Shown: positions 5,301 to 30,817 of the stretch, one piece after another
Numbering within the stretch: position 1 is the first letter of the stretch
Layout: each line of letters opens with the position of its first letter
Virus record (IMG/VR): IMGVR_UViG_3300031974_002416
Span: 1 to 30,817 of that record
DNA: 30,817 nucleotides
Strand: one strand, 5' to 3'
Origin: a virus
Notes under the pieces: model-generated
Databases searched by the model: none
What the model was told of the DNA's origin: nothing
The model's input: only the letters and a program-made list of their open reading frames with translations
Translations under genes and position numbers: made by a program

Positions 5301-7078
5301 TCCGAGCCTCCGTTGGTGCCTGCCGATTGCTCCCCGGGAGCTGTGTTTTGAAGAACAAGCCCACTAGAATTCTCCGCTGGTCCGTACGCGAAGTCCGGGT
5401 TCATCTTCATATATGTACCACCAATAGCAGGTATAGGGGTGGTTCCGGTATCGTCAAGCTCACCCACTGCAAAGGTTTTCTTTTCTAACGCCTCAGCATA
5501 GGTGCAGGAAGTGACCGCACCAGCGGAGTCGCTTTTTACAATGTACCTGTCCCCCTTCTCAACCTTGGCCGCGTTCTCCCCTTCGAGCAAGAAGTAAACA
5601 TCAATCACATCAGGCTCAGGTAAAAGCGGGTCCGGAACGGGCCACACAAAAAATTGGTTGGTGTAGATGGTCTCATACAGGTCGGTGTCAGGCTTGATGA
5701 CAAACTTGTATCGAGAAGCCCACGACGGAGCCAGCATAAGGGATGGTATCGTAACCCGAATCTGATTCTGGAAGATGGAGTCGCCACACTCTAGCTCAAC
5801 CTTATTGTTAGGAGCAACAAGGGCAGTGCTAGACCTACCAAACTCGTCCATGTACACAATGCCAATCTCATAGACTCGATTGCTGTGCAAGCTAGGGGCC
5901 GAAAACGTAGGCTGAGCACTCGAGGTCTCTGCGTCCAATGGCGTTTGAAGCAATGTCGCATTGAACCCAAGCTTAACGGTTTGGCCGTTCAGGTTGCGCA
6001 TATTGTACCCCTCGAGGTAGTTGCCATAGACAATCCTATTGCCCATAAGCGTCTGCGCCTTGGCCCGGCGTGGGACGTTATCGTACAGCCGTAGTATCTC
6101 GCTCTCGGGAAGGATGGTAAAAATCTTCCGCTTGCTAAACTGAATGGTGTAGTCGGAGTTATCCGTCAAGGCCGAGTCCGCCTTGTCCACCTTCTCAATG
6201 ACGCGGATGATATTGTCATCCATCTCCTTGAACAGGATGTCGATACCCTTTACCAAAGAGCTGCCTGTACGTACAGTAACGTCACATACCTGAACGGAGT
6301 TGACCATACCCTCGTTGAGGTATGACTCGGTAGTGAAAGCAAAGGGCTCGCTCTCAAAGATGGGGGCACTAAACTGTGACGTGGCCGAGTACTCGTTGTT
6401 GGCATATTCCCAACGGTATCCAAAGCACAGAAACCTGTCCTCCATATAGTCCTCGCGGGACACCACATCAACAGCAGTAACCACAGGAGCTGCATTGGGT
6501 GGTCGCTTGATGACGAGGATATCGTCGCCCAAAAGACCACCATCAACAAAAGCCACGGGCTCAGGGTAGGCCGTAGTCACATTGATGCGCCGAGGGGCGT
6601 TAAAGTCGTCGGTAAAAAACAACAGGTCGTCAACCAAATTGACGCCAGTGATAAGATACTGCGGGTCGAAGTTGAGGGTTGTAGTTGTGCCCGTAGGGTC
6701 AGTAGGGTCTTCGATGCTAACTACGTGATACGTAAGCAGATTGCTACGCATATTGTACGAGACGATGAGGTCAAGCTTGCCCGTAGCGCCTTCAGTAAAA
6801 GCAGGGTCGTGGACAAACCAGTACATGGTCTCGTTAGCCCCATCGCTATACGCCCCAAGGCAGGTGGCGTTGTCACTCAAGGGCGTTCCCGTAGGGGGGT
6901 ACACCAGCGTAGTGAGCTGGGTATTGCCCTTGCTGTTCTCTACCGCTCCAATCTCCGACTCCTCCGTGGAGCCCATACGGATATTCTGCGCGTCGATATA
7001 CTCTCCTTGGGGAACAAGGCGCTCGTCGACGCTCTTGTTCATGCGCCCCTTGATGAAGTTCCGGATGAGGTTTGCCAT
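2372..7078 (-). CDS. Giant virion protein (stabilisation/tail type) with C-terminal lectin-like domain
   Basis: A protein of 1568 residues, ATG at 7078 overlapping the upstream stop (TAATG). The N-terminus carries DERLVPQGEYIDAQNIRMG followed by an SEIGAVEN segment, a signature of marine-podovirus structural proteins that I associate with P22 gp10-like stabilisation proteins and beta-propeller tail components. Residues about 1-1100 are beta-rich and Asn/Thr/Gly-rich with no long helices, so it is not a tape measure. Residues about 1315-1568 form a separate domain: GAAAGYSVRRI, TWYDQAGSNNATQ, PQIYNGTAV and a final DQSSNRTGIETDINGYFSIY. This resembles the concanavalin-like fold of GH54 arabinofuranosidase-type domains found in phage adhesins. 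The domain recurs twice in the 23575-25260 product. Probable role: tail hub or needle with a glycan-binding tip. Confidence 0.85.
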   Translation of the reverse strand: MANLIRNFIKGRMNKSVDERLVPQGEYIDAQNIRMGSTEESEIGAVENSKGNTQLTTLVYPPTGTPLSDNATCLGAYSDGANETMYWFVHDPAFTEGATGKLDLIVSYNMRSNLLTYHVVSIEDPTDPTGTTTTLNFDPQYLITGVNLVDDLLFFTDDFNAPRRINVTTAYPEPVAFVDGGLLGDDILVIKRPPNAAPVVTAVDVVSREDYMEDRFLCFGYRWEYANNEYSATSQFSAPIFESEPFAFTTESYLNEGMVNSVQVCDVTVRTGSSLVKGIDILFKEMDDNIIRVIEKVDKADSALTDNSDYTIQFSKRKIFTILPESEILRLYDNVPRRAKAQTLMGNRIVYGNYLEGYNMRNLNGQTVKLGFNATLLQTPLDAETSSAQPTFSAPSLHSNRVYEIGIVYMDEFGRSSTALVAPNNKVELECGDSIFQNQIRVTIPSLMLAPSWASRYKFVIKPDTDLYETIYTNQFFVWPVPDPLLPEPDVIDVYFLLEGENAAKVEKGDRYIVKSDSAGAVTSCTYAEALEKKTFAVGELDDTGTTPIPAIGGTYMKMNPDFAYGPAENSSGLVLQNTAPGEQSAGTNGGSDQRTENGQFDPGDYPVLVYKFNDKTLSVLNPVPAGSRIRLTFSLTRQGRGDGSGGCEKLTLDFDHTWEVETDYNDIIDWFYGTSTPNDVIATIEAAEGFTGDVNGNPPEMTVLPEYTGPDTDTFGVPANTGTVMLWTDQGGAGGPWLVIYGVQKCGGVSGGNSPNRRSRVKASLSITRATQTITFETEPTPALPDLWYESSASYTIDPFGNHYGNVQNQINATGQPGIVDTAFFNCFSYGNGVESYKIRDSIKGKPLTLGNRVTTTSDERFSEVRRFADLTYSGVINDETNINKLNEFNLGLLNFKPLEDSYGPVEKLFGRRTDILTLQEDKISYVLAGKNLLTDTTGESLIASVPEVLGTQVARVEDFGISNNPESFAEWGPHKFFTDAKRGAVIHLYGDGQKEQLEVISENGMRSWFRDMFIADFNTQKLGGYDPYMNEYVLASNEIFLPGQEDCIECNTIQTFLLTPTEQSFCVNLGNTVGPVSVDYIVVEAEAGDEATITTTYPNTPSGTSVITGPITSTSQPSVPDVNKNSITDNSVGIDLNYTGSGRFIIQVQVKCPNAQDLNVRLITVSRDTYRGQSIHSEFQWQDGTFVSPLSSTAVTFDGGVNPIISDWQEYTVSQGSNLGPIDGSTVTMMYNRLNPDNYILRAVDRLGLLRSSTNYTQADIVTLLADPALTKLAPTGADPLYTADFLMPNTTDEYLYLIWDYSNGSTPPPASFLLDTYTGAAAGYSVRRIASSATNLMRIREDSGDTETDIGYDSNGDLDLAAIASHCGSANGYVVTWYDQAGSNNATQSTTTQQPQIYNGTAVITENGKPALSFSTDTFDFTITGNANNFSSFTVATNDATTSSHMQFALSISPRWWHWYQSGNAQFWYGNTSITHSAYDQSQHLSTMIAGSTLGHAGFWIDNVKASTTATLNTSAFDGSEKIGDYPTGGNPWDGTMQEIVLWPSDQSSNRTGIETDINGYFSIY

Positions 7079-8001
7079 TACTTAATCCACTTTTCGCGAC
7101 CACGCAGGTTCATAAGCAACCGTCCCGGGTGGATATTGCTCATGCGAATCTTGGCGTTGCGTAACAAAGCGGTCTTCTTTTTGCGGGCTCGGCCTACGAT
7201 GTACTCCTGTACGCCCAGCTTGGCGTCAAGGATAGCGTACTGGATGTACGCATAGACGTACTCCTCGAAGAGCTTGTTCACGCTAATCTGACTGTTGTCC
7301 CCGTTCTCCATGCCGTCGCTGACATACTCGAGGATGCACAGCTCGTCAGCCATACCGCTGCTGAAATTGATGACACCCGCACGCTTGTCAATCTTAAAGG
7401 TCGGGTTGGCGTTGGCGGTCTCGGTGTTCAAGCCATACCGCGCTCCGATAGCCCAATCGAAATACCATGTGCCCTCGTAGCAGTACCCAAGCTCCCCGTC
7501 GAGGGGGCTGTTCTCGTTGAGGTATATGCTCTGCTTGGTACCCTTGATACGGTCGTAGTCGATGGTCGAGTCTTGGGGGCGGAGGATGCCTCCGTTTTGG
7601 TCAAACAGGATGCGACAATCGTTGTCTTGCAAATACGCCGAGCTCCAGTTCGTCTGGATGTTCTCCGTTAACGGCCGAAGGATTCCGTCCTTATACAGAG
7701 AAATACGCACCCAGTTCACGTAGTCGGGAGGAAGCACAAAGCGCAAGTTGTCGCAGACGCTGAGCTCGAGAATCTTAATCTCCTTCATCGCGTCGTAGTT
7801 GAGCTCTTGGATAGCCCGCTTGGCGTGGAAGAGAATCTTGTACCGCTCCTCGTTGTTGACCAAAGAATGGTTGCCGTTGTACATCAACATGAAATTGTTG
7901 ACAATGTCTTGCAACGAGACGTACTGGTAGCTACCCCAGTTGGCATCCTCGGGGAGGGCGCCGTTATTCTCGTAATACTGATACTCTGTGATATACGGCA
8001 T
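7078..8001 (-). CDS. Probable head-tail adaptor or tail tube protein
   Basis: A protein of 307 residues starting at an ATG coupled to the upstream gene through TAATG. An N-terminal helical part (ERYKILFHAKRAIQELNYD) is followed by a beta-rich stretch (LRFVLPPDYVNWVRISLYKD) and a basic helical C-terminus (VGRARKKKTALLRNAKIR, ending GREKWIK). The order of a helix bundle and a DYVNWVRI-type strand reminds me of gp11-like adaptor or tail tubular proteins of marine podoviruses, and the position between another neck-type protein and the giant tail protein agrees. The assignment is by pattern and context only; a minor virion protein is the alternative. Confidence 0.75.
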   Translation of the reverse strand: MPYITEYQYYENNGALPEDANWGSYQYVSLQDIVNNFMLMYNGNHSLVNNEERYKILFHAKRAIQELNYDAMKEIKILELSVCDNLRFVLPPDYVNWVRISLYKDGILRPLTENIQTNWSSAYLQDNDCRILFDQNGGILRPQDSTIDYDRIKGTKQSIYLNENSPLDGELGYCYEGTWYFDWAIGARYGLNTETANANPTFKIDKRAGVINFSSGMADELCILEYVSDGMENGDNSQISVNKLFEEYVYAYIQYAILDAKLGVQEYIVGRARKKKTALLRNAKIRMSNIHPGRLLMNLRGREKWIK

Positions 8002-8773: not shown

Positions 8774-9664
8774 TTAATACATATAAGCGCCGGGCTCATC
8801 GAAAATGGCCACCCAATTGTCGGAATAAGTCCCCGTACACAAATTTTCAATACGGTTACAGATGTCATCAATACGAATTTTCATCTGGTCCATATTGGCG
8901 TTGTACGGAGAAATTACATATGAATCCCACGGCTCCAGCCATTTTCCGCCGGGCAGCCTCGAGGGTTGCCACCAGATGTCGAACGTGCCGTAATTAATCC
9001 CGTAGAAGATGTTCATGTGGCGGGTGTCCTTCAAAGCAAGCCTGCTTACCACCCCGTCTTGACCCATGAAAAAATAGTTACCCGGCACAAAGGCGACGGG
9101 CTTGTCAAGCTTCAGCGTCACATCATCAACCACTTGTACCACTCGGTATTCAGGGAGCGGCAATCCGGGATTATTCCCCTCTCCATCATACCACCACTGG
9201 ACGTAGTCCGGAGCTCCTCCCTTTGCAGTAAACCTAGTTGGGTTTGTGGTGCTGGCATCAACCACCTGAAGAAGGTATGCAGAATCGTGGTTTCCATCCC
9301 GATACGCAACGAACGTAGGTTCTACTGGTGTGTAGTTGGCGGGGTCTGTGATGTCACCCCCATCAAAGTACAGATTGCAAAACCCGTTATCGTTCATCCC
9401 CCCGATAGCACCATCAAAGGTTACTGTAGTGGTTGTAACCTCAGTAACATATACGTGAGGTGTATACCAGTCCCTGTTGAAGACCAAGTCTCCTACCTGA
9501 AAGATTGTGGTGAAATCAGTTACCGTTGAACTCAAAACATTTGTTGCGGAGTCCCATGTGTCGCTGGCGTTTAAGAACTGATACTCTGCATCGGGCGCGT
9601 ATGGGTCTGGGTCTGCATTAAACCCGGCAGTTTGCTGCTTTACCCCAAAATACAAGTCTGTCAT
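8774..9664 (-). CDS. Hypothetical virion protein, beta-rich
   Basis: A protein of 296 residues, ATG at 9664. Residues about 1-200 are beta-rich and Thr/Asp-rich (TWDSATNVLSSTVTDF, VYVTEVTTTTVTFDGAIGG, YRVVQVVDDVTLKLDKPVAF). The C-terminal 80 residues are aromatic-rich, then helical (DNMDQ-like NANMDQMKIRIDDICNRIEN), ending DNWVAIFDEPGAYMY. No catalytic motif, signal peptide or membrane segment is visible. It is the last gene before a strong terminator and lies in a row of three structural-region genes separated by 3-6 bases. A neck, tail or head-decoration role is plausible from position only. Confidence 0.7.
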   Translation of the reverse strand: MTDLYFGVKQQTAGFNADPDPYAPDAEYQFLNASDTWDSATNVLSSTVTDFTTIFQVGDLVFNRDWYTPHVYVTEVTTTTVTFDGAIGGMNDNGFCNLYFDGGDITDPANYTPVEPTFVAYRDGNHDSAYLLQVVDASTTNPTRFTAKGGAPDYVQWWYDGEGNNPGLPLPEYRVVQVVDDVTLKLDKPVAFVPGNYFFMGQDGVVSRLALKDTRHMNIFYGINYGTFDIWWQPSRLPGGKWLEPWDSYVISPYNANMDQMKIRIDDICNRIENLCTGTYSDNWVAIFDEPGAYMY

Positions 9665-9667
9665 AGC

Positions 9668-10045
9668 TTAGTTGTTAATGCTGGTAAGGTCGTACGTATT
9701 AAACAAAACTGGCGGTGCAGTAGGAGGATAATAGATGGCGGAGTCGCTTTCAAAAGCATTTCGAATTTGCTCCGTCAACCATATAACAACATTGTTGTCG
9801 ACTTGAGAGGCCACCAAATCAAGCTTAACATACTGAGTGCTCGACGACTGTAAAGTATTTATTAGGTATCCCTCTCTGAAGTAAATCTTTATTTCTTCAT
9901 TGCTGTCGCCCTCATCGACGTACAGTACGTCAGTGATGTTTAACAGAAGACAAGGTGACGTTGCACTATCAGGGAATGGAACGTCGTTGTAATACAAATG
10001 ACCGCCCCAATAGTCAAGGCGTAAAAACTTCAATTCTGGATTCAT
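9668..10045 (-). CDS. Hypothetical protein in the neck/tail gene cluster
   Basis: A protein of 125 residues, ATG at 10045, three bases upstream of the next gene. The sequence is mixed alpha/beta with an aromatic-rich N-terminus (LRLDYWGGHLYYNDVPF), a central acidic loop (YVDEGDSNEEIKIYF) and a helical segment (VVIWLTEQIRNAFESDS). I do not recognise the family. The compact size, lack of membrane segments and position between capsid and tail genes would fit a head-completion or neck protein, but nothing in the sequence settles it. Confidence 0.65.
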   Translation of the reverse strand: MNPELKFLRLDYWGGHLYYNDVPFPDSATSPCLLLNITDVLYVDEGDSNEEIKIYFREGYLINTLQSSSTQYVKLDLVASQVDNNVVIWLTEQIRNAFESDSAIYYPPTAPPVLFNTYDLTSINN

Positions 10046-10051
10046 ATCGTT

Positions 10052-10405
10052 TTACTTGGGTGGGGCAACATTTTCGTCCCCAATCGTAACAGCCTCGATA
10101 GGATAGTCAAAAGGAATGGGTTCACCGTACATCGGAGCGCCGGGACTGTTGGCTGCCGTATACATCTTGTTCAACCAATTTATCGTTTCAAGCGCAGATG
10201 GGCGTGAGGGATACGCGTCAGGAATCTTAATATAGGTTTGACCAAGTTGACCCCCGGTGTTTGTGGTGTTTCCACAAAAACCACCGATTAAATAATTGCT
10301 AACGTCGAAATAGGTGCCAACGCCGCCCATCCTTGCGGGGACGTATACGTTGTACGGTTCCCCACTCAAAGGAGAATCAACACGTATAGTCATAAAGTTC
10401 ATCAT
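10052..10405 (-). CDS. Hypothetical protein in the neck/tail gene cluster
   Basis: A protein of up to 117 residues. Three in-frame ATGs compete for the start, at 10405, 10402 and 10393; the last gives a protein beginning MTIRVDSPLSGEP, and no ribosome-binding sequence decides between them. The product has a Gly-rich middle (ARMGGVGTYFDVSNYL, GGFCGNTTNTGG), a short helix around ALETINWLNKMYTAAN and a Pro-rich end. I do not recognise it. It is 6 bases from the next gene and 13 from the previous one, so it belongs to the same transcription unit as its neighbours. Confidence 0.6.
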   Translation of the reverse strand: MMNFMTIRVDSPLSGEPYNVYVPARMGGVGTYFDVSNYLIGGFCGNTTNTGGQLGQTYIKIPDAYPSRPSALETINWLNKMYTAANSPGAPMYGEPIPFDYPIEAVTIGDENVAPPK

Positions 10406-11212: not shown

Positions 11213-12682
11213 TCAGTCTTGGAACAAGAAGAAGTTGTTCGCTCCCATGGTGCAAACAGCACGCTCAGAGAGGAAGTGAACTTCCATTGCGTCAACCTCA
11301 TTGTTCATGGCGCCTCCAGCAGAACCCGTAATCCAAGTCTTGTACCGGCGGTCCTCAGTTTCTGAGGCGCGGTAGCGGACGTGGAGGAACGGACGCTTGG
11401 CGTTCTTTCCGAGAATCTGGTCATACACCGTAGTGCTGCCAGCGGGGACCATCATGCCGTTGATGCCGCCTGAAGCGAGACCACCGCGCATGGTTGGGTC
11501 GTTCAGGTACTTCCAGTCAGACTTGTAGAAGTCGTAACCACGGCGGAAGCCCGTGAAGCCAAGGTTGAGAGCCATCTGCTCGTCGTTGTCGAACAGACCG
11601 TAGCTCGTACCGCCGGCACCGTAGCTGTTCTGTGCAGCCAGCATGTCGTCGATAGCGAAGCTGAAGTCGCGGTTGACAAAGATGACGTTCTCCTCAATCG
11701 CACCCTGCTTATCCAAGCGAGAGATGATAGAGTCGAAGTCAGCCAGAGCGGTGGGGATACCACCGGACCAGACGTTACCACGGTTCTCCAGTACGTAGAA
11801 GATGCCTTCGGTACCCTTGTTGCCGATAGCACCACCGGTGTATCCAGCCTGCGTTACAGTGGCCGAAGCAGCAGCCGAGCCGGCCTCAGCGGGAACAGCC
11901 TCGAGCATAGAGGTCTCGAGGTAGTCGTCGAAGCGGAGACGGGTCTCGTGCTCGGACTTCAGGTACCACAGGTATCCGTTAGCACCGTTCTCGGTGGTCA
12001 CTTCAATCCATCCAATCTGAGCCATGTCAGAGCCGTTAACAGCGTAACGGTCCTTCAGGATGATAGGACTAGTCTCGAAGATTTGGTCCTCAGCCTCGAG
12101 GGAGCCAGACATGCCGGCGCCGCCCTTAGCAAACTCAGAACCGTAGATGAATACGGTAACGTCAGAACTACCGGCACCTGTACCTGCGGCAACAAGACCA
12201 CCGGCTTCGTAGAAGGCAACCTCAAACGTGTTTGCGGCGGTGTCTACGTTAATGACGATACCCTTGTTACTGCCAACGCCACTGTTCTGGTCAATCATAA
12301 CAGTTTGACCGATACGAATAGCGATGGTGTCGTAGCTACCGGTAGCGACCGAACCTGCTGGACCGTTGAGGGCGTCGTTGACTTGGAACGTAGCGTCGGC
12401 GGCGCCAAGAGCAGCGGCGGTACCTACCTCTGTATACTTGGTGTGGAGGCGTCCCTGCTCTGCCCACTTGATGAGGTCAGAGTTGGACGGCATCTCTGCA
12501 CCAACCATGCGAAGGAAGGATGAGACCGTACGGTTGCCATAACGCTCGAACTCCTTCTCGTAAGTATCAGGGAGATACTGATTGAGGAAGTCGAAATTGT
12601 TGATGTAGTTCGTTGCAAGGGGAACCTGCTCGGAACTGGGTTGGAGTTGATACCCCGGGGTTACTTGGACTGAACCAGCCAT
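11213..12682 (-). CDS. Major capsid protein
   Basis: A protein of 489 residues, ATG at 12682, six bases after the scaffold-like gene. The call rests on gene order (TerL, portal, acidic scaffold, this gene), size and composition. The N-terminus has a flexible extended arm (VTPGYQLQPSSEQVPLATNY) followed by a helical FERYGNRTVSSFLRMVGAEM. The middle carries Gly/Ala/Thr-rich beta segments (residues about 80-185) that could be an inserted surface domain. The C-terminal third has the mixed alpha/beta feel of HK97-type shells (ENVIFVNRDFSFAIDDMLAA, NLGFTGFRRGYDFYKSDW, MEVHFLSERAVCTMGANN). No protease gene was seen. The leader is purine-rich without a Shine-Dalgarno sequence. This is a likely client of the phage chaperonin, by analogy with T4 gp23, which needs GroEL with gp31. 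Confidence 0.88.
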   Translation of the reverse strand: MAGSVQVTPGYQLQPSSEQVPLATNYINNFDFLNQYLPDTYEKEFERYGNRTVSSFLRMVGAEMPSNSDLIKWAEQGRLHTKYTEVGTAAALGAADATFQVNDALNGPAGSVATGSYDTIAIRIGQTVMIDQNSGVGSNKGIVINVDTAANTFEVAFYEAGGLVAAGTGAGSSDVTVFIYGSEFAKGGAGMSGSLEAEDQIFETSPIILKDRYAVNGSDMAQIGWIEVTTENGANGYLWYLKSEHETRLRFDDYLETSMLEAVPAEAGSAAASATVTQAGYTGGAIGNKGTEGIFYVLENRGNVWSGGIPTALADFDSIISRLDKQGAIEENVIFVNRDFSFAIDDMLAAQNSYGAGGTSYGLFDNDEQMALNLGFTGFRRGYDFYKSDWKYLNDPTMRGGLASGGINGMMVPAGSTTVYDQILGKNAKRPFLHVRYRASETEDRRYKTWITGSAGGAMNNEVDAMEVHFLSERAVCTMGANNFFLFQD

Positions 12683-13761: not shown

Positions 13762-16197
13762 TTATCGTGGACTAAATTCTGCCAAGTCGAAGCCGTCCAA
13801 GCTGTCTTCGTTCGACTCGAAATTCATGGGCGGCAAGTTATTCTTCCGCTGGTCAATCAACTTACTCTGCTCAGTATTTTGTTGACTAATGCGTTTTGAC
13901 TTAGCCTCCTCACGCTTGTCCTCACGCGCCTGTAGCTGCTGCTCCTGCATACCGTGCAACTGCAAGTTGTATTGGAACTCAAGGTCCATAAGCTGCGCCT
14001 TGGCTTGAGCTTCGGCTTGCATCTTCTCAATCTCGAAGGCAATCTCGGCCTGCTTGACCTGCATCTTACTTTGGGCCTCAGCTTGAATCTTCTGCATAGC
14101 CGTCTGCGCAGCCATCTGCTGTGACTGCATATTAGACTGCGCCTGCATCTGCTGCTGCTGGAGCTGGAACGTACGCTCCTCCTCCTGCTTTGCGGCACGC
14201 TTAATCTTCAAGAGTTGGTTGGCAAGCTTGATATTCTTAATCTCACGGATGTCAATAGCGTCCTCAAGGTCGATACCACCCTTACTCAAAGCCATTTGGA
14301 TATTGGCCTCAAGCTGTGCACGCTCCTCCTCGTCGGGGCTGACCTCGATGAAGATTCCGAAGTCGTACAGGTAGAGCTCGTTAATCTCCCGTAGGATACT
14401 GACGTTGTACTTGCCAATCTGGTTTACGAACTCGTCCTTGAAGTCGGCGTACTCCAAGATGTCGCTGACACGGTACGTAAGGGCCTCAGCCAGAGACCGG
14501 AACATATACAGGCTCCCGTCCAGAATATGGCGGGTAGCCGTATTGCTATTGGCCGCAGCCAGCTTCTGCAATCCGACAAGGCTATGCGGGTCGGGCGTAC
14601 TTCCGTCGCGGGCCTCGTTGAGTCCCGTTACGTCACGAATCATCTGCAAGTAGTGATTCATATTGCCAATGAGCATCTGCGTCTTAGCAGCACCGCTGTT
14701 GCTATTGAGCTCTTGGATAGGAACCTTGCCCTGATTGTACTCCCCGTCCTGAGTGTATGACCTTCCAATAACGCTACCCGTTTGGAAGTATAGCCGCAAG
14801 GCATCCTCAGGGTTGTATGCGTTGCCGCCACCAAGGTCGACCTCGTTGAGTCCATCCGCGTCGATATACACGCCGTCGGGAACGGTGCGCGAGATAACCT
14901 GCTGGAGCTTGAGGTGCGTAATCTGTATGAGGTCGGCGAAAGGAATCATACGCCGCGTAAGCGACTCGATGACACCCTTGTACATACGTGGAGCCGTAGC
15001 CACGTAGTTCGGCAGCGCGTGCTGGCTGGCAGACTTCGGGCGCACCATATTGTGGGCCACCTCCCACTTGAGCAGGATGTTGGTGCCCATCACCATAACG
15101 CCATCATACCATACGTCGATGGTCTTCTCGACCTTCTCGTAGTTGCCCTCCTCCATCATCTCCTCGGGAGGGTTGAACTGGTCGTCCTTTTCAATAACGC
15201 GGGCTCCGTCGCCTTCTAGCTTCTTCTTCTTGTAGACAATCTTCTTGGTCGTCTTGTAGTTGAAGTACATCAACGTAGCCGTATCGCGGTAGAAGATGTC
15301 GTTCTCGTAGAACTGAGCTACGTTGTAGTAGTCGTACCAGCTTTGGCTGTACTTGCTAATTTCTTCCAAGTCCTCGTTGGTGAGGCTCGGGTCAATCTTC
15401 ATAAGCTCCGTGATAGGGAGCGTCTTAATCTCCCCCCAGTAGAAACAGTCTTTGAAATATGGGTCCTCGGTATAGCTGTACACTATGTTGGCCGGGTCCA
15501 CATACGAAACTTGTACGCCCGAGCCGGGAAGGAACTCGTGCTTGGTAACACCAATTCCCAATACGGTGAGGTCGTAGTCGACGCGCTTACGCAGGTCGGT
15601 GTAGTGGTTTTCCTCAAGGATGGTGTTGATAGCTTCTTCCTCAGCAATCTCAATAGCCGGTTTGTAGTTGAGCTGCATATAGACCTGCAACTCCTCATCG
15701 GTGCCGGGAAGGTCTTCGGGGTTCATAGTGAACGGGTCGACGCCTGTCTTCTGCTGGATAATCTCCAACACAGGCTTGGCGACCATCTGCCCCTCAATCA
15801 TATCCTGATACTTGCTGCGCTTAGCTTGCGACAAAGCATCTTGAGCGTACGCCTTGACCTTGAAGACGCGCTCGGACATACCGTTGACTACGATGTCAAT
15901 AAACTTCGGTAGGATAGGTACAGGCGTCCAGTCCAGATTGAGGTACGAGAGGTCACCGTCGATAGCCAGCTCGTTCTTGTACTTGGCGATACTCTGCTCG
16001 CCACGAGCGTAGAGGCGCAAACGGTTGAAGTCACGCCACTGATTGTAGAAGCGACACTGGTTGCCATCCCTCTTGAACCACTCGTACTGAATGGCTTGAC
16101 CGACCATGAGGCCATACTCGTCACTAGCCTTCTCCGCGTCAGAAACAAACTGACTGGGGAAGCCCGCGCTAGAGATGTTGACTTTAACGTCTTTCAT
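13762..16197 (-). CDS. Portal protein
   Basis: A protein of 811 residues, ATG at 16197, overlapping the 3' end of terL by 14 bases. It forms the dodecameric gateway for DNA in the capsid vertex. Supporting features: position directly after TerL, size typical of podovirus portals, an N-terminal helical part with FYNQWRDFNRLRLYARGEQS, a wing/stem-like core with SYVDPANIVYSYTEDPYFKD, and a long Gln/Met/Ala-rich helical C-terminus (residues about 670-760, for example LQQQQMQAQSNMQSQQMAA), which matches the helical barrel seen in long portals. An AGGAG sits 8 bases before the ATG but lies inside the terL coding sequence, so it may be chance. Confidence 0.92.
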   Translation of the reverse strand: MKDVKVNISSAGFPSQFVSDAEKASDEYGLMVGQAIQYEWFKRDGNQCRFYNQWRDFNRLRLYARGEQSIAKYKNELAIDGDLSYLNLDWTPVPILPKFIDIVVNGMSERVFKVKAYAQDALSQAKRSKYQDMIEGQMVAKPVLEIIQQKTGVDPFTMNPEDLPGTDEELQVYMQLNYKPAIEIAEEEAINTILEENHYTDLRKRVDYDLTVLGIGVTKHEFLPGSGVQVSYVDPANIVYSYTEDPYFKDCFYWGEIKTLPITELMKIDPSLTNEDLEEISKYSQSWYDYYNVAQFYENDIFYRDTATLMYFNYKTTKKIVYKKKKLEGDGARVIEKDDQFNPPEEMMEEGNYEKVEKTIDVWYDGVMVMGTNILLKWEVAHNMVRPKSASQHALPNYVATAPRMYKGVIESLTRRMIPFADLIQITHLKLQQVISRTVPDGVYIDADGLNEVDLGGGNAYNPEDALRLYFQTGSVIGRSYTQDGEYNQGKVPIQELNSNSGAAKTQMLIGNMNHYLQMIRDVTGLNEARDGSTPDPHSLVGLQKLAAANSNTATRHILDGSLYMFRSLAEALTYRVSDILEYADFKDEFVNQIGKYNVSILREINELYLYDFGIFIEVSPDEEERAQLEANIQMALSKGGIDLEDAIDIREIKNIKLANQLLKIKRAAKQEEERTFQLQQQQMQAQSNMQSQQMAAQTAMQKIQAEAQSKMQVKQAEIAFEIEKMQAEAQAKAQLMDLEFQYNLQLHGMQEQQLQAREDKREEAKSKRISQQNTEQSKLIDQRKNNLPPMNFESNEDSLDGFDLAEFSPR

Positions 16198-18421
16198 TCA
16201 ACTCGCTCCTGTAACCACGATTGTTATACCTAGGCAAGGTAATACTTATTGATGTCTTCTTATTCTCAGGAGTATAGAGGTGCTTTTGGTTAGCCATAAT
16301 AGCCAGCCCACTACTTATGGTGGCGTCGAAAGCAGTCCTGTTACTGATATCAAACCGAGCCCAATCCTCTAGTGTTCTAACAAAAGGCATCTCGCCCATC
16401 TCGCCGGGGTCGCGGAACGCACCCTCCATATCTATGCCCACATGCTTTTCTATGTAGCTCTCGATAGCTGCGGCGTGAGCCTGCTTAACGTCCTCGCTAC
16501 TGTTGGGTATGCCACCCAGCTCGCGCTCGGTCTTGCTCAGTTTGTTGAGATGCTTGTCCGGACGGTTCATACAGAACCCACGGTACCCACGGTTCTTGAA
16601 GTGGTATAGTAGCCTAGGCTTGTTGTTCTCAATCAAGATGGGCATGCCATAGAAAACGCACGCCATAAGCACCTCCTCGAAAAATATCTCTGCCGTCTGT
16701 GGCCTAGCGACATATTCCAAGAAGAACTGGTTCGTAGGCGCATCGTCCATGTGGAACTTGGTCATTCCGTGAAGAGCACCATTAGAACCACCACCACCCA
16801 CAGTACCACTAATATCGTAGGAGTCACATCCAAAAGAGCCAAGGTGTTCATTGCCGGGATACTTTACGCCTCGCTTCTCTAACCATCGGTTCTGCATACC
16901 CGACTTGGGGAACCACGATACATTAAACCTGCCACGCTTATCAGGACTAAAAATAACCCTCGTGTCTTTGACGCCGTTCTCCCAACGGAACGACCCGCGC
17001 GTGAGGTAGTGCTCCTTGACAAGGCTATCGGCGTAGTCTATCTGCTGGTAAATCTTGGTGAGGTTGAACAAGCTCTGCTTGCTCTCGTCACGGAAAGCAT
17101 GCGACTCGGTGCGCGGAAACTGACGGTAAAATTCGTTAAGGGCGTCAGCGTCGCTCTTCATACTCTCTACCTCCGCCTCCCAGTAGTCGATAGCGCCAGA
17201 TTTAATCTTCTCCCCGTCGACGCCTTTGATGGGCTTCTCAGGAGCACGGAACACGGGGTGACCATACTGGTCTATAAACCCCTCCATATTGTACTCCATA
17301 GGAATGAAGAGGGAATACATGCCGCTCCTAGTCTGACCGTTGGCGTTGCGTACGCTGGGGTCGGAGTCTTCGTATAGCTTCTTGAAGTTCGAGCCGCCCT
17401 TAGCCAAAGCGTTAGACGTCGAGCCCATCAAGCACTTGCCGATAATCTTGCTACCGAGCCTCAAGCACGTCTTGGTAACTCGCCAGTTGTTGAGGATGTT
17501 GTTGGGCTTAATCCACTTTCCGCTCTCGTCGTGGACGAGGAGGAGGAGCTTCTCTCCGTCGTAGGAGTTGTCGTCGGTGTTCTTCCAGTCGATGGTCGTG
17601 TCCAGTCCGAAAATCTCTTCGTCCTCCACATCGTACATGTTCTTCTTTGTAATCTTCGAAGCAGGTATACGAAACGCCAGTTCCGTTTTCGGCTTATCCA
17701 TGCCGTCCTGTATCGGTTTGAAGAAGAATGGAAGGCGGTTCGCAATGGGAACCACCTTGTCGGTGAACATTTTCTTGGCGTCCGCACCCGTCTTAGAGAG
17801 TATACCAACCCGTGAATCTTTCGCTAGTGTGCCAGTGTTTACGCACTCCGACGAACCCATGAACGAAAAACCAGAGCGGCGAATCTTGAGGTACGCCATA
17901 CCGAAGCAGCGAGGGTCCGCCTTGCACGCTTCCCAGAAGATAAAGAATATCCTGTTCGCCTCACGGAAATCTGGATACCCTACGTCGATACTCGTCCACT
18001 GCAAATACATGTAGTGGGCACCCGTGATGTACGTGGGTACGCCGTTGTTGTAGAACCAGTGGCCGTCCTCGCGACGGTCGAACTCGCTTTCGATATAGTC
18101 TACCCAGTTGGCTTTGAACGCCTTGGGCATATCGTTCCACTGGAAGATGCTCTGTATGCGGCTCAGCTCCTTGGGGAGCTCCTGACGTACCCAACGGTTC
18201 TTGCCGTCCGGCAGGTCTTTGGGAGCCGGGGGCAGGGCGATATTAACACCGTTGATGTTTATGATATCTCCTACCTGTCCGGTCTTGGAGATGACCACGA
18301 TGTCATACTTCTCGTTGTAACCGTAGAGCCACGTCTTAGCGCGGTTCTTGTTCTTCAATACCGTCTTGGATACAAGACCCTTGACTACGGTATATAGCTT
18401 ATCTGGACCGTCGTTCTGCAA
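16184..18421 (-). CDS. terL: Terminase large subunit
   Basis: A packaging ATPase and nuclease of 745 residues. The first possible start is a TTG at 18421, overlapping the upstream gene by 23 bases; no upstream ATG or GTG exists in frame, and the N-terminus LYTVVKGLVSKTVLKNKNR looks native. The ATPase domain shows a deviant Walker A around residues 177-188 (YLKIRRSGFSFM), a Walker B at about 291-299 (KLLLLVHDE, with the catalytic Glu) and a coupling motif at about 332-335 (MGST). The nuclease domain shows GSFGCDSYDISGT (Asp at about 533 and 536) and PILIENNK (Glu at about 598), consistent with an RNase H-like fold. It sits between TerS and portal as usual. Confidence 0.96.
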   Translation of the reverse strand: MQNDGPDKLYTVVKGLVSKTVLKNKNRAKTWLYGYNEKYDIVVISKTGQVGDIININGVNIALPPAPKDLPDGKNRWVRQELPKELSRIQSIFQWNDMPKAFKANWVDYIESEFDRREDGHWFYNNGVPTYITGAHYMYLQWTSIDVGYPDFREANRIFFIFWEACKADPRCFGMAYLKIRRSGFSFMGSSECVNTGTLAKDSRVGILSKTGADAKKMFTDKVVPIANRLPFFFKPIQDGMDKPKTELAFRIPASKITKKNMYDVEDEEIFGLDTTIDWKNTDDNSYDGEKLLLLVHDESGKWIKPNNILNNWRVTKTCLRLGSKIIGKCLMGSTSNALAKGGSNFKKLYEDSDPSVRNANGQTRSGMYSLFIPMEYNMEGFIDQYGHPVFRAPEKPIKGVDGEKIKSGAIDYWEAEVESMKSDADALNEFYRQFPRTESHAFRDESKQSLFNLTKIYQQIDYADSLVKEHYLTRGSFRWENGVKDTRVIFSPDKRGRFNVSWFPKSGMQNRWLEKRGVKYPGNEHLGSFGCDSYDISGTVGGGGSNGALHGMTKFHMDDAPTNQFFLEYVARPQTAEIFFEEVLMACVFYGMPILIENNKPRLLYHFKNRGYRGFCMNRPDKHLNKLSKTERELGGIPNSSEDVKQAHAAAIESYIEKHVGIDMEGAFRDPGEMGEMPFVRTLEDWARFDISNRTAFDATISSGLAIMANQKHLYTPENKKTSISITLPRYNNRGYRSELNERR

Positions 18422-18674
18422 AACCCACTTTCGTTTCCGTCTGGGTTGTGTCCAACTCCAATTCCTCCTCCTCGGAGTCTATGCGATTCAAAATCTCCAG
18501 AGCGTCGAAGATGGCAAGCTTCTTAGTAGCTGCCGCATTCTTCAGTCTGTCCGCCGCAAGGTCATCGTCTTCGCCGGGCTTGAGTATGTCTTCCTGAGCA
18601 ACCTTGATGAGCTGCTCAACCGCTACGCGCCCCGCCGCGATAATGCGTTCCTTTAGCTTTCTTGAATCTTGCAT
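18399..18674 (-). CDS. Probable terminase small subunit
   Basis: A protein of 91 residues, ATG at 18674, overlapping the upstream gene by 22 bases and terL by 23. It is almost entirely helical: KLKERIIAAGRVAVEQLIKV, then an acidic stretch DILKPGEDDDLAADRLKNAA and an acidic run EEEELELD before a basic end FAERRSR. The immediate coupling to terL and a small helical protein with a charged tail fit a small terminase, which recognises phage DNA and feeds TerL. I recall near-identical small proteins in front of terL in related phages. A recognisable helix-turn-helix is not clear from reading alone. Confidence 0.75.
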   Translation of the reverse strand: MQDSRKLKERIIAAGRVAVEQLIKVAQEDILKPGEDDDLAADRLKNAAATKKLAIFDALEILNRIDSEEEELELDTTQTETKVGFAERRSR

Positions 18675-19204
18675 GTTATTTGGTGGTCGAACATCCGATA
18701 CAACTTCTCCCCATCGACAGTGAACTCGTACTCGCTATCAGGTTTGAAGGTTACCATATCCCCGGACTCAATTCCTTGGGACAAAAGATAATCATTGGGA
18801 AATCGCATTATACCGACCAGAGGTTCCTCTGTCAACGGCTTGAAGATGATAGATTCTTCAGGGGGTACAGGCTGCACAAAGCAATACCTATCGTGGGGAT
18901 GCCACTCGCCAGACGAGCGCCACATATAGAATTGGTCGAAGTCAACAAGGAATAGGTCGTCTTTCAGAAAGCTCCTACCACTCTTCCTACGGCCCTTCAT
19001 ATCGTTGTAGTACTTGAACACATTGTGGTGCACAAGCAACGTATCGCCGATGGCAATGGGACCCTCATAGCCCAACGGAAGGGCTACAACCTCCCCCTCA
19101 CGGTTTGCGAAGCGGTGGTCCTCCTCACTCGTACTTACGATGAGGTCGCCCTTGGTATTGTTGTATCTGTGTCCCCGAACTACAAATTGATTGACCGCTC
19201 TCAA
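18653..19204 (-). CDS. Tandem GroES-like (Cpn10-type) protein, two domains
   Basis: A protein of 183 residues if it starts at the TTG at 19204, which overlaps the upstream stop as TTGA. It reads as two GroES-type beta-barrels in a row. Domain 1 (about 3-95): NQFVVRG aligns with the first GroES strand, then a loop NNTKGDLIVS like the GroES mobile loop with its hydrophobic tripeptide, GEVVALP like GEVLAVG, and AIGDTLLVH like KVGDIVIF. Domain 2 (about 104-180): HDRYCFVQPV like HDRVIVKR, a loop with SIIF, GIMRFPN, then ESGDMVTFKP, VDGEKLYRMFDHQITCKI like the GroES C-terminal hairpin. Tandem Cpn10 domains are known from plastid Cpn20. It lies just before TerS, far from groES. Probable co-chaperonin for the phage GroEL or host GroEL; inference from manual alignment. 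Confidence 0.72.
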   Translation of the reverse strand: MRAVNQFVVRGHRYNNTKGDLIVSTSEEDHRFANREGEVVALPLGYEGPIAIGDTLLVHHNVFKYYNDMKGRRKSGRSFLKDDLFLVDFDQFYMWRSSGEWHPHDRYCFVQPVPPEESIIFKPLTEEPLVGIMRFPNDYLLSQGIESGDMVTFKPDSEYEFTVDGEKLYRMFDHQITCKIQES

Positions 19205-28036: not shown

Positions 28037-28459
28037 ATGAACTATTTAAAGTACTGGCGGGTAGTCCGCTACTTCATCCAAGCCAAATACGGCATCACCC
28101 AGCCCGACCTAGAGATGATGCTGTTCCTATATGACGAGCCCTACTTCACCAAAGCGAAGTTCAAGGAGTTCAACAAAGTCTTCTCGTGGGACAAAGACCG
28201 CTTCGAGCGCCTCCGCCGAAATGGATGGGTGGAGAAAGTATCGGTGGAGTCGAAGTCGAGACTCGGGGTCTATAACCTCACCTACAAAGCCAAGCGCGTA
28301 GTAGGGTACGCATATGCCATACTCCATGGCAAAGAGTTCCCCACCGATGACCAGAACAACCCAGTCTTCAAAAGAGATTGCTCATTTACCGATAAGATGT
28401 ACCGGAAGGTGATGATGCAAATCAATGAAGAACAACGACAACATCGCGCTCCGAAATGA
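28037..28459 (+). CDS. Possible winged-helix DNA-binding protein, only plus-strand gene
   Basis: A protein of 140 residues from ATG 28037 (an ATG at 28007 in the same frame would add ten residues but would overlap the divergent start codon). The N-terminal half is helical with YWRVVRYFIQAKYGITQPDL, a likely first and second helix, then LFLYDEPYFTKAKFKEFNKV and FERLRRNGWVEKVSVESKSR, a helix followed by a beta wing as in MarR-like winged helices; LGVYNLTYKAKRVVGYAYAI follows. If so, it may regulate transcription of one of its divergent or convergent neighbours. Its 3' end overlaps groES on the other strand by 38 bases. Function is inferred. Confidence 0.75.
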   Translation: MNYLKYWRVVRYFIQAKYGITQPDLEMMLFLYDEPYFTKAKFKEFNKVFSWDKDRFERLRRNGWVEKVSVESKSRLGVYNLTYKAKRVVGYAYAILHGKEFPTDDQNNPVFKRDCSFTDKMYRKVMMQINEEQRQHRAPK

Positions 28460-28682
28460 TGGTACGCGCAACACCATCAATCAACATGGTGTAGCTCGCT
28501 CGCTTGTCGTAGTACAACTCCTCGCCAGCATGGATGCTGGTCACGTCAGTGCCTGAAGCCACAACAACGCCACGACCGTAGCGCATCTGGTCGGCGTCCT
28601 CAGCGCTCAAGAGCAACCCGCTGCTAGTGGTGGTCTCCTCCTTGATGGCGTCGATGACGATGTATTTCCCTATTGGACGCAT
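28422..28682 (-). CDS. groES: GroES-like co-chaperonin
   Basis: A protein of 86 residues, ATG at 28682, a little shorter than bacterial GroES (97). It should cap a GroEL ring and close the folding chamber. Visible features: first strand KYIVIDAI, a mobile loop of about residues 15-30 (EETTTSSGLLLSAEDAD) with the hydrophobic triplet LLL in place of IVL, then GRGVVVASGTDV, AGEELYYDKRA and a C-terminal hairpin DGVARTIISERDVVVVLH. It follows the 85-residue gene by a 13-base overlap and groEL before that, giving an order groEL - gene - groES, opposite to the usual bacterial groES-groEL. Its end overlaps the plus-strand gene. Confidence 0.9.
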   Translation of the reverse strand: MRPIGKYIVIDAIKEETTTSSGLLLSAEDADQMRYGRGVVVASGTDVTSIHAGEELYYDKRASYTMLIDGVARTIISERDVVVVLH

Positions 28683-28927
28683 TGTATGAATAGTGGTGTG
28701 AGAGGGCCCACATACGCGCCCCCGATATTAAAGTCAAAGTACTCTACCGCCTCGTCGGACTCCATGTCATGGTCAACGACAAGTATCTCAAGGATGCGCC
28801 CGATATCGTAGCACACGCGCCACCCGTCCTCAACCTCAGTGAGGCCAAGGATGGCGTCGTCGAAACCATCGGCGAAAATGGCCTTGCTGTCGATAGCAGC
28901 CAACCAAAGCTCAATCTTCTCTCTCAT
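28670..28927 (-). CDS. Conserved phage protein between groEL and groES, 85 residues
   Basis: ATG at 28927 overlapping the groEL stop as ATGA. The product starts REKIELWLAAIDSKAIFADG and contains FDDAILGLTEVEDGWRVCYD, a helical RILEILVVDHDMESDEAVEY and the end FDFNIGGAYVGPLTPLFIQC plus VQ. The DGFDxAIxGxxxxxxRVxYxxxxxxExL...EAxEYxxFNxxGAYVGxxTP pattern is common in phages of many hosts as an orphan protein of unknown function. In this genome it is locked between two chaperonin genes by overlaps on both sides, so it is co-expressed with them and may act with them, but the family is not otherwise tied to chaperonins in my knowledge. Confidence 0.85.
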   Translation of the reverse strand: MREKIELWLAAIDSKAIFADGFDDAILGLTEVEDGWRVCYDIGRILEILVVDHDMESDEAVEYFDFNIGGAYVGPLTPLFIQCVQ

Positions 28928-30462
28928 GCCCGTGCAAGTGTAATGATAGCCTTGGTGCTCAAGATGGTGACCGCAACGCTGACCGCGTTCTGCAAAGCCG
29001 TCTTGGTAACGCGCGTAGGGTCGATGATGCCCATGTCGACAAGGTCGCCATACTGACCCGTCTTTACGTCGTAGCCCCACCCGTCGTCGCACATAGTGTA
29101 GTCGTAGCTCGAACCAGCGTTAGCCATTATCTGGTCCATGGGTGCGCACAAAGCTTCACGCAACACTTCAGCCGCAGGGCCCTTACGGTCTAGTAACCAG
29201 CGACTTACGTTGTATAGGGTGACCCCACCGCCGGGAAGGACGCCGTCTTGCATAGCAGCACGAACGGCGCACACAGCGTCGTCGACCCTATCGTATAACT
29301 CCTTCTGCTCTAGGTCAGTATGGCCCCCAACCTCAATCACTCCTACACCACCGACGAGGCCAGCGATGCGCTGGTTGATGAACTCTTTGTCCCCTTTCTT
29401 CTTAGCCAGCTTGTACGCCTCCTGCAACTCAGCGATGCGCGTATCAACGCCATCGGCACGCTCGTCCTTGACGATGATGGTCTCGCTGCGGCTAACAACA
29501 ACGCGGTCCGCATACCCAAGGTCGTCGAAGCCAATCAAAGACAGGTCGTCGCCAGTACGCTCCGAGAAGTAGGTGGCCCCAACAGTGACGGCTAGGTCTT
29601 GCATAAGCTCGTGCTGCTTGTATCCGAAGTTGGGAGGCGGAACCACGCAGACCTTGAGGCCCTTCTTGACCACATTGGCAGCAAGGGTATTGACCACGTG
29701 AGTGCTGCACGGAGCCACGATAAGTAGCTTCTTCCCCTCCCGAATAATAGGAGCCAAGACGTTCTCAATAGCAAGGATGTTGCTCACGTCGCCGTCGCAC
29801 ACCATAACGTGGCAGCCCTCCAAGACACACTCGTCGCGGCTCTGGTCGTTGATGAAAAGCTCGCTGGCATAACCACGGTCGAGCTTGAGGCCATGCGTAA
29901 CGCTGAAGCCCGTCTCGCTGGTCATACTCTTCTCAACCGTAACAACACCGTCCTTGCCCACCTTGCCATACACGTCAGCGATAAGCTTCCCGATGCCCTT
30001 GTCATTATTGGCAGAGATAGTAGCCACGCTACGCAAGTGCTTCTTGGTCAGCCGCCGACTCCGCCGGTCGAGCTCCGCAAGGACGTCTTTGGTAAGAGCA
30101 ACAAGCTCCCGCAACATATCCGTCTTGTTGGCATCGTCGAGCGCAGTGAGACCACCCTTGACCAAAGCTTCCGCCAAGACAATACTCGTAGTAGTACCAT
30201 CGCCCGCCTCACTAGCCGTCCTGTCCGCCGCTTCCTTCATCATACGTACCGCCAAGTTCTCGACAGGGTCCAACAGGTCCACAGCCTTAGCCACAGTGAC
30301 GCCGTCCTTGGTGACCGTAATACCATGCGTATGGTTGGGGCTTTCGATAAGTACAGTCTGCCCGCTCGGGCCAAGAGTAGACTTGACCGCCTTCGATAAT
30401 TGCTCAATGCCACGGATGAGCTTGTCACCTTCGAAGTGAAGGTCCTTAGGTATTTCATTCAT
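28924..30462 (-). CDS. groEL: Phage-encoded GroEL chaperonin
   Basis: A protein of 512 residues from the ATG at 30462 (the frame is open to 30501, but the MNEIPKDLHFEGD start aligns with GroEL). ATP-site motifs are intact: TLGP (29-32), TKDG with Asp53 (E. coli Asp52), GDGTTT (87-92, Asp88), RVDD with Asp395 (E. coli Asp398), and DGVLPGGG (406-413). In the apical domain RGYASELFIN replaces RGYLSPYFIN, so of the substrate-binding trio Tyr199/Tyr203/Phe204 the middle one is Leu. The protein ends soon after the last core strands (LSTKAIITLARA) and lacks the bacterial GGM-type tail. It should form an active, ATP-driven folding ring, probably for phage virion proteins. Length is about 35 residues below the bacterial norm. 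Confidence 0.96.
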   Translation of the reverse strand: MNEIPKDLHFEGDKLIRGIEQLSKAVKSTLGPSGQTVLIESPNHTHGITVTKDGVTVAKAVDLLDPVENLAVRMMKEAADRTASEAGDGTTTSIVLAEALVKGGLTALDDANKTDMLRELVALTKDVLAELDRRSRRLTKKHLRSVATISANNDKGIGKLIADVYGKVGKDGVVTVEKSMTSETGFSVTHGLKLDRGYASELFINDQSRDECVLEGCHVMVCDGDVSNILAIENVLAPIIREGKKLLIVAPCSTHVVNTLAANVVKKGLKVCVVPPPNFGYKQHELMQDLAVTVGATYFSERTGDDLSLIGFDDLGYADRVVVSRSETIIVKDERADGVDTRIAELQEAYKLAKKKGDKEFINQRIAGLVGGVGVIEVGGHTDLEQKELYDRVDDAVCAVRAAMQDGVLPGGGVTLYNVSRWLLDRKGPAAEVLREALCAPMDQIMANAGSSYDYTMCDDGWGYDVKTGQYGDLVDMGIIDPTRVTKTALQNAVSVAVTILSTKAIITLARA

Positions 30463-30523: not shown

Positions 30524-30702
<179 letters not shown>

Positions 30703-30708
30703 AACGAA

Positions 30709-30734
30709 CACACCCCGGACGTTTCCGGGGTGTG
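30709..30734. terminator. Strong GC hairpin, probable terminator of the upstream unit
   Basis: CACACCCCGG and CCGGGGTGTG form a perfect 10-bp stem with a 6-base loop. On the minus strand it is followed by TTCGTTTGTG, moderately T-rich; on the plus strand no T run follows. It probably ends leftward transcription entering from beyond the right edge, before the control region of the groEL operon. Confidence 0.6.
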
Positions 30735-30817
30735 CCACTTAACCAAATTGCGTGAGCACTTGCCTGCTCGCTAGGGGAAGGTAACATTTTCGGCACAGGT
30801 GTATAGGGGTTTTGGGT

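Follow-up and report, generated by a model that had tools for sequence, protein, structure and literature searches.

A phage-specific GroEL-GroES pair encoded in reversed order, with altered grip surfaces, an open lid and a second, predicted tandem GroES-like gene

The window analysed here, which corresponds to the whole IMG/VR virus record IMGVR_UViG_3300031974_002416 (30,817 bases) of a marine bacterial virus, carries a phage-specific and conserved chaperonin pair, in which groEL precedes groES. We consider it probable, at about 0.78, that this pair forms a phage-dedicated group I chaperonin folding virion proteins. Hundreds of marine phage contigs carry a GroEL of this type and, if its groove, its roofless lid and a predicted tandem lid-like protein make up a capsid-dedicated chamber, these phages would represent a natural experiment on the adaptation of a chaperonin to few clients.

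The locus lies on the minus strand and comprises groEL (28924-30462, 512 residues, ATG at 30462), an 85-residue 'DGFD' gene (28670-28927) and groES (28422-28682, 86 residues). The groEL stop and the start of the 85-residue gene overlap by 4 bp (ATGA), and groES starts inside the 85-residue gene, with an overlap of 13 bp. The original prediction was right as to the order, sizes and coordinates of these three genes, and its claim that the phage carries both a full GroEL with intact ATPase residues and a GroES-sized partner is confirmed by Pfam scores over the cut-offs and by a residue table. It had also described the chaperonin locus as complete, which holds for the GroEL/GroES pair but is too narrow, since a second, tandem GroES-like gene adjoins the terminase genes. 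The inserted 85-residue gene is the least informative part of the locus. Upstream of groEL, a run of GA dinucleotides (30554-30586) and a strong terminator-like hairpin of 13 pairs (30707-30736, minus strand), located between groEL and the record end, were noticed.

The groEL product matches PF00118 (Cpn60_TCP1) in Pfam over residues 22-508 (E 3.5e-49, 168 bits against a curated cut-off of 34.3) and phrog_5725 in PHROGs (E 2.5e-127), and its best solved relative is a reconstructed ancestor chaperonin of Fibrobacteres-Chlorobi-Bacteroidetes, followed by bacterial GroELs. The ATPase residues T30, G32, K51, D52, G86-D87-G88-T89-T90-T91, D398 and D495 (E. coli numbering) are intact, and D52, D87 and D398 are present in 85 out of 85 phage GroEL sequences. 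With its full-length Cpn60 domain, these three aspartates and the GDGTTT motif, the protein is a group I chaperonin subunit (GroEL/Cpn60), beside which a Cpn10 lid gene is encoded. The GGM tail is missing from its C-terminus, as originally noticed. The residues found between the rings in E. coli (R452, E461, S463 and V464) all differ in the window GroEL, and R452, which is present in 79 of 80 bacteria, is lost across the viral set, so that the protein may form one ring or two. In one relative (L016, GroEL at 5881-7374), an apparent alignment gap near E. coli residues 414-416 may be a deletion or an assembly fault.

The substrate groove was compared, in E. coli numbering, between 80 bacterial and 69 viral GroEL sequences. 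At position 203, Tyr is present in all 80 bacteria, and Leu or Met in all 69 viral proteins; the Leu of the window had been correctly pointed out in the original prediction. Position 234 is hydrophobic (L234) in 80/80 bacteria and Glu in 69/69 viral GroELs, position 263, Val in 80/80 bacteria, has become Ala in 68/69 viral proteins, and position 264, Val in 78/80, has become Ala in 69/69. These four changes (Y203L/M, L234E, V263A and V264A) are thus fixed or nearly so in the viral GroELs and absent from the bacterial ones, and Y203L is a smaller change than L234E, V263A or V264A. Furthermore, all viral sequences have Asn in place of A260 and Ile in place of A241; Y360 is lost, while F204 and L237 are kept, as is Y199 in 67 of 69. 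From GroEL mutagenesis, we take L234 and the two Val-to-Ala sites to be where E. coli GroEL binds its clients and GroES. The changes at these sites, read in the light of established GroEL work, may tune the protein to phage clients, as was originally proposed, and the fixed set of replacements makes client and lid recognition by GroEL directly testable.

With regard to the co-chaperonin, the groES product matches PF00166 (Cpn10; E 1.2e-8, 35.3 bits against a curated cut-off of 21.1) and phrog_3188 (E 8e-12), and carries, in addition to the GroES/Cpn10 domain, a mobile loop, SGLLLS. The roof hairpin of the dome is typical of GroES/Cpn10 proteins, although not strictly defining. Alignment with bacterial proteins revealed the absence of this hairpin (E. 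coli residues 50-57) from 63 out of 63 viral GroES, the window protein included; a shortened hairpin is also found in roughly one in three of the bacterial sequences. The loop tip, G-I-V-L in bacteria, is mostly G-L-L-L in the viral set, and the loop segment comprises 20 residues in viral proteins versus 18 in most bacteria. In addition, Y71, a position occupied by Tyr or Trp in 77 of 79 bacteria, is lost in the viral set. Since the GroEL groove (Y203L, L234E, V263A and V264A) and the GroES tip (I-V-L to L-L-L) change together, the phage GroEL and GroES are probably matched to each other rather than to host partners.

In the mechanism that we infer, the GroEL rings would bind unfolded virion proteins of the phage, of which the likeliest clients would be the capsid protein of about 53 kDa and other structural proteins from the late genes of the same strand. 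ATP binding would then recruit the phage's own GroES lid, and folding would proceed in a chamber with a more open dome, the roof hairpin being gone. The groEL-first order and the overlaps would couple the translation of ring and lid, and the 85-residue gene would be a passenger in a slot tolerant to inserts.

The conservation of the locus was investigated by an IMG/VR scan, which returned 465 GroEL-encoding relatives, the best 80 of which were examined. Both genes were found in 82 phage loci, among them the window itself, MW202828 and an elemo phage of Flavobacterium, and in every one of these loci groES follows groEL on the same strand. The pair is contiguous or overlapping in 14 loci, and in 56 a distance above 120 bp separates the two, owing to small genes located in between. 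Phages phi38:1 and immuto have groES first, so the groEL-first order is not common to all phages. In the bacterial control, groES is upstream of groEL in 78 of 80 loci, in agreement with the groES-groEL order originally stated for bacterial operons, and the window therefore presents the reverse of the bacterial groE operon.

This opposite order already argues against a host-derived cargo, that is, a bacterial groE operon acquired recently as an auxiliary gene supporting host proteostasis. Host genes do occur in phages, and a Vibrio phage GroEL (L233) nests beside that of E. coli in our tree. This tree, a maximum-likelihood reconstruction from 78 GroELs, was obtained by a quick search and contains several long branches (phi38:1, Panino, elemo and crAss-like), so that exact sister groups and deeper relations are unsure. 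The window GroEL falls within a clade of 26 viral sequences (SH-aLRT 99) with a stem of 1.47 changes per column, and a second supported branch (95) separates it from all 43 bacterial sequences, within or next to which three further phage GroELs are placed. Even the best bacterial matches share no more than 35-40% identity with the window GroEL. Since its clade consists of viruses only and leaves out every bacterium sampled, the window GroEL is not recent cargo; the tree rules out its recent acquisition from bacteria, and we regard a host-derived operon as highly improbable. The original prediction had called for such a phylogeny and for a search for the locus order, naming as counter-evidence the nesting of the genes inside one bacterial lineage or the absence of the order from all related phages. 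As groEL comes first in all the viral relatives examined that have both genes, and the tree keeps the window GroEL out of the bacterial lineages, neither was encountered, though the 85-residue gene lies between groEL and groES in only 23 of 80 loci. We also considered that the proteins might have left folding for another role, for instance as parts of the virion, or as a decoy acting on chaperonin-dependent processes of the host. The hydrophobic groove residues with which E. coli GroEL holds its clients are changed in every viral member. Moreover, mass spectrometry has revealed the GroEL of phi38:1 both in infected cells and in free-virion samples, and in the latter it was one of the proteins carrying methylation (PMC13288928). 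However, phage preparations may carry over abundant cytosolic complexes, and a non-folding role would require neither the retention of the ATPase residues nor the maintenance of groEL and groES together, which makes such a role unlikely. It is possible that the altered groove gives weaker or different binding, or that encapsulation does not take place, as reported for the phage EL chaperonin (PMC7185714). We retain as the preferred reading a chaperonin dedicated to the folding of virion proteins, which is also favoured by the occurrence of the phi38:1 GroEL in infected cells and free-virion samples and by the structural module shared with that phage.

A further question concerns the 85-residue gene, an acidic protein (pI 4.05) of the phrog_13182 family, in which its function is unassigned. 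Its position, and the overlaps with both groEL and groES, could reflect a functional third component of the chaperonin, either an adaptor or a regulator. In favour of this, the gene is kept in the nearest relatives of the window (L006-L013 and L016), and no other ORF family found in the slot has entered it as frequently (21 loci for this family, 10 for the next). Nevertheless, the family is absent from 57 of the 80 groEL loci, being always between groEL and groES in the 23 others, and also occurs in 62 loci without groEL, with many different neighbours. Members are found in Bacillus herelleviruses, and in phage DSL-LC04 the gene sits between primase and helicase, where it likewise overlaps both neighbours. 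The slot itself holds 36 ORF clusters in total, and the slot copies were rejected as a single clade (p-AU 0.0004, from a short alignment with some long branches). In phi38:1, a different, unrelated gene separates the chaperonin genes. We consequently find a third chaperonin component quite unlikely, and the absences, the groEL-free loci and the non-monophyletic slot copies rule out a fixed operon part; the original description of the inserted gene as conserved is not upheld for this promiscuous family. The gene is not a chaperonin part, and is most readily seen as a small, mobile phage gene that a permissive slot has taken up on more than one occasion. A correspondence with phi38:1 gp006 was also envisaged and ruled out, similarity being absent. 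The AF2 model of the protein (pLDDT 95.4) has no Foldseek match in the PDB at E <= 0.001 and none above Z 2.8 with VIA-align, which does not prove a new fold; in BFVD, it matches 18 viral proteins at E <= 0.001, none with known function.

On the other side of groES, a convergent gene (28037-28459, plus strand, 140 residues, phrog_17028) overlaps the groES end by its last 38 bp. A relative of this gene faces groES in 82 loci, and the overlap measures 32-39 bp in 71 of these loci, 55 of which have exactly 35 bp. When groES codons specifying identical residues are compared, codon identity reaches 0.70 within the overlap versus 0.43 elsewhere (Mann-Whitney p 0.0003), which fits a coding constraint on both strands. 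In some relatives (L073, L076, L077 and L058-L060), the overlap amounts to only 4-8 bp and the C-terminus of the convergent product is different; a long overlap is therefore not obligatory. The sequence, together with weak matches of family members to SarA/Rot, PadR and HTH_45, suggests a winged-helix regulator, and we would venture as a guess that it times chaperonin expression.

The second co-chaperonin-like gene (18653-19204, minus strand) is located just upstream of the terminase genes and matches phrog_13932, annotated as 'co-chaperonin GroES' (E 9e-20). Its likely start is a TTG near 19204, giving 183 residues, since several relatives have stops further upstream; an alternative upstream GTG would give 200 residues. 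The AF2 model (pLDDT 76.8, with a low-scoring N-terminal loop) has as its best PDB match the Chlamydomonas Cpn20 7ekq_R (Foldseek E 3.5e-5; VIA Z 9.9, rmsd 5.1, 154 residues aligned over residues 3-181), and its C-terminal half matches GroES with Z 8 to 9. In profile searches, the match to GroES has an E value of 0.0003 for the C-terminal half and of no better than 0.04 for the N-terminal half, so that the tandem assignment rests on the fold match. The gene is thus predicted to encode two GroES folds head to tail, an arrangement present in the model. It co-occurs with GroEL in 23 out of 23 GroEL-bearing, near-full-length contigs of 55-65 kb, and, of 14 contigs found via the tandem gene, 8 carry GroEL, most of the others being short. 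Its homologue in phi38:1 is gp089 (E 2e-26). Among the matches listed in a literature search, there was no phage tandem GroES.

Chloroplasts build seven-domain rings in which single and tandem co-chaperonins are mixed, and Cpn20 with Cpn10 resembles the window in combining tandem domains, here predicted, with a single-domain GroES (PMC5780408). The similarity in sequence to chloroplast Cpn20 is low, and only the first domain of the window protein seems to keep a glycine-hydrophobic stretch resembling a mobile loop. We tentatively raise the possibility that the phage GroEL ring is capped jointly by single-domain and tandem GroES, for instance by three single and two tandem proteins giving seven domains. 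If true, this would represent an independently evolved mixed lid, possibly providing different chambers for different virion proteins. Alternatively, the tandem gene may encode a neck or assembly protein that has a GroES fold.

Eleven genes of the window are collinear with gp089-gp099 of phi38:1 (E 1.5e-6 to 7.5e-167), forming a phi38:1-like terminase, portal, capsid and tail module that places the phage near the phi38:1 group. On the minus strand, they include those for the terminase large subunit (16184-18421; phrog_6681, E 5e-182; gp090, E 2.5e-133) and the portal protein (13762-16197; phrog_6547, E 6.5e-145; gp091, E 7.5e-167). The product of 11213-12682 (minus strand, 489 residues, 52.7 kDa, phrog_13704) is probably the major capsid protein, judging from its match to gp093 (E 3.7e-106) and its position two genes after the portal. 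Three genes without a PHROG match (296, 125 and 117 residues; 8774-10405, minus strand) lie between the homologues of gp095 and gp094, two genes that are direct neighbours in phi38:1.

Like the window, phi38:1 (Cellulophaga, Pervagoviridae; chaperonin genes gp005, gp007 and gp089) encodes GroEL, Cpn10 and, directly before the terminase, a 194-residue 'co-chaperonin GroES', but its order is groES, a 90-residue gene and groEL, and its GroEL is about 37% identical to that of the window. Closer is the uncultured Podoviridae sp. ctfjg026 from Manatee Spring (MW202828), with a GroEL 56.6% identical, the same groEL-groES order, a convergent gene annotated as 'repressor protein' with a 35-bp overlap, and a tandem GroES upstream of the terminase; unlike the window, it lacks the 85-residue insert, and in its annotation groEL and groES share 44 bp. 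Nishimura et al. (PMC5332604) reported in 2017 marine GroELs in the phi38:1 group, related to the Cellulophaga phage GroEL, and the window record probably belongs to the same population. The passages considered do not deal with gene order, alterations of groove and roof, the slot or a tandem GroES; the study of virioplankton chaperonins by Marine et al. 2017, as cited in PMC8390657, may overlap with these observations.

Phage chaperonins as such are already known; the combination of reversed order, altered grip surfaces and a double-length second lid-like gene seems not to have been described before. The GroEL-like proteins of phages EL, OBP and AR9 are much more distant. All three are reported to work without a co-chaperonin, those of OBP and AR9 as single rings (PMC9598537), and that of EL reportedly does not encapsulate (PMC7185714), whereas the window phage encodes a lid. 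T4 gp31 offers a parallel for this lid, as it is devoid of roof loops and has longer flexible loops, generally believed to allow GroEL-gp31 to fold the 56 kDa gp23 (PMC6318259). Both are phage lids without roof loops, and the capsid client of about 56 kDa in T4 compares with the probable 52.7 kDa capsid protein of the window. Compared with the longer loops of gp31, the loop segment of the window-type GroES exceeds that of most bacteria by only about two residues, and T4 borrows the GroEL of its host, whereas the window phage encodes its own.
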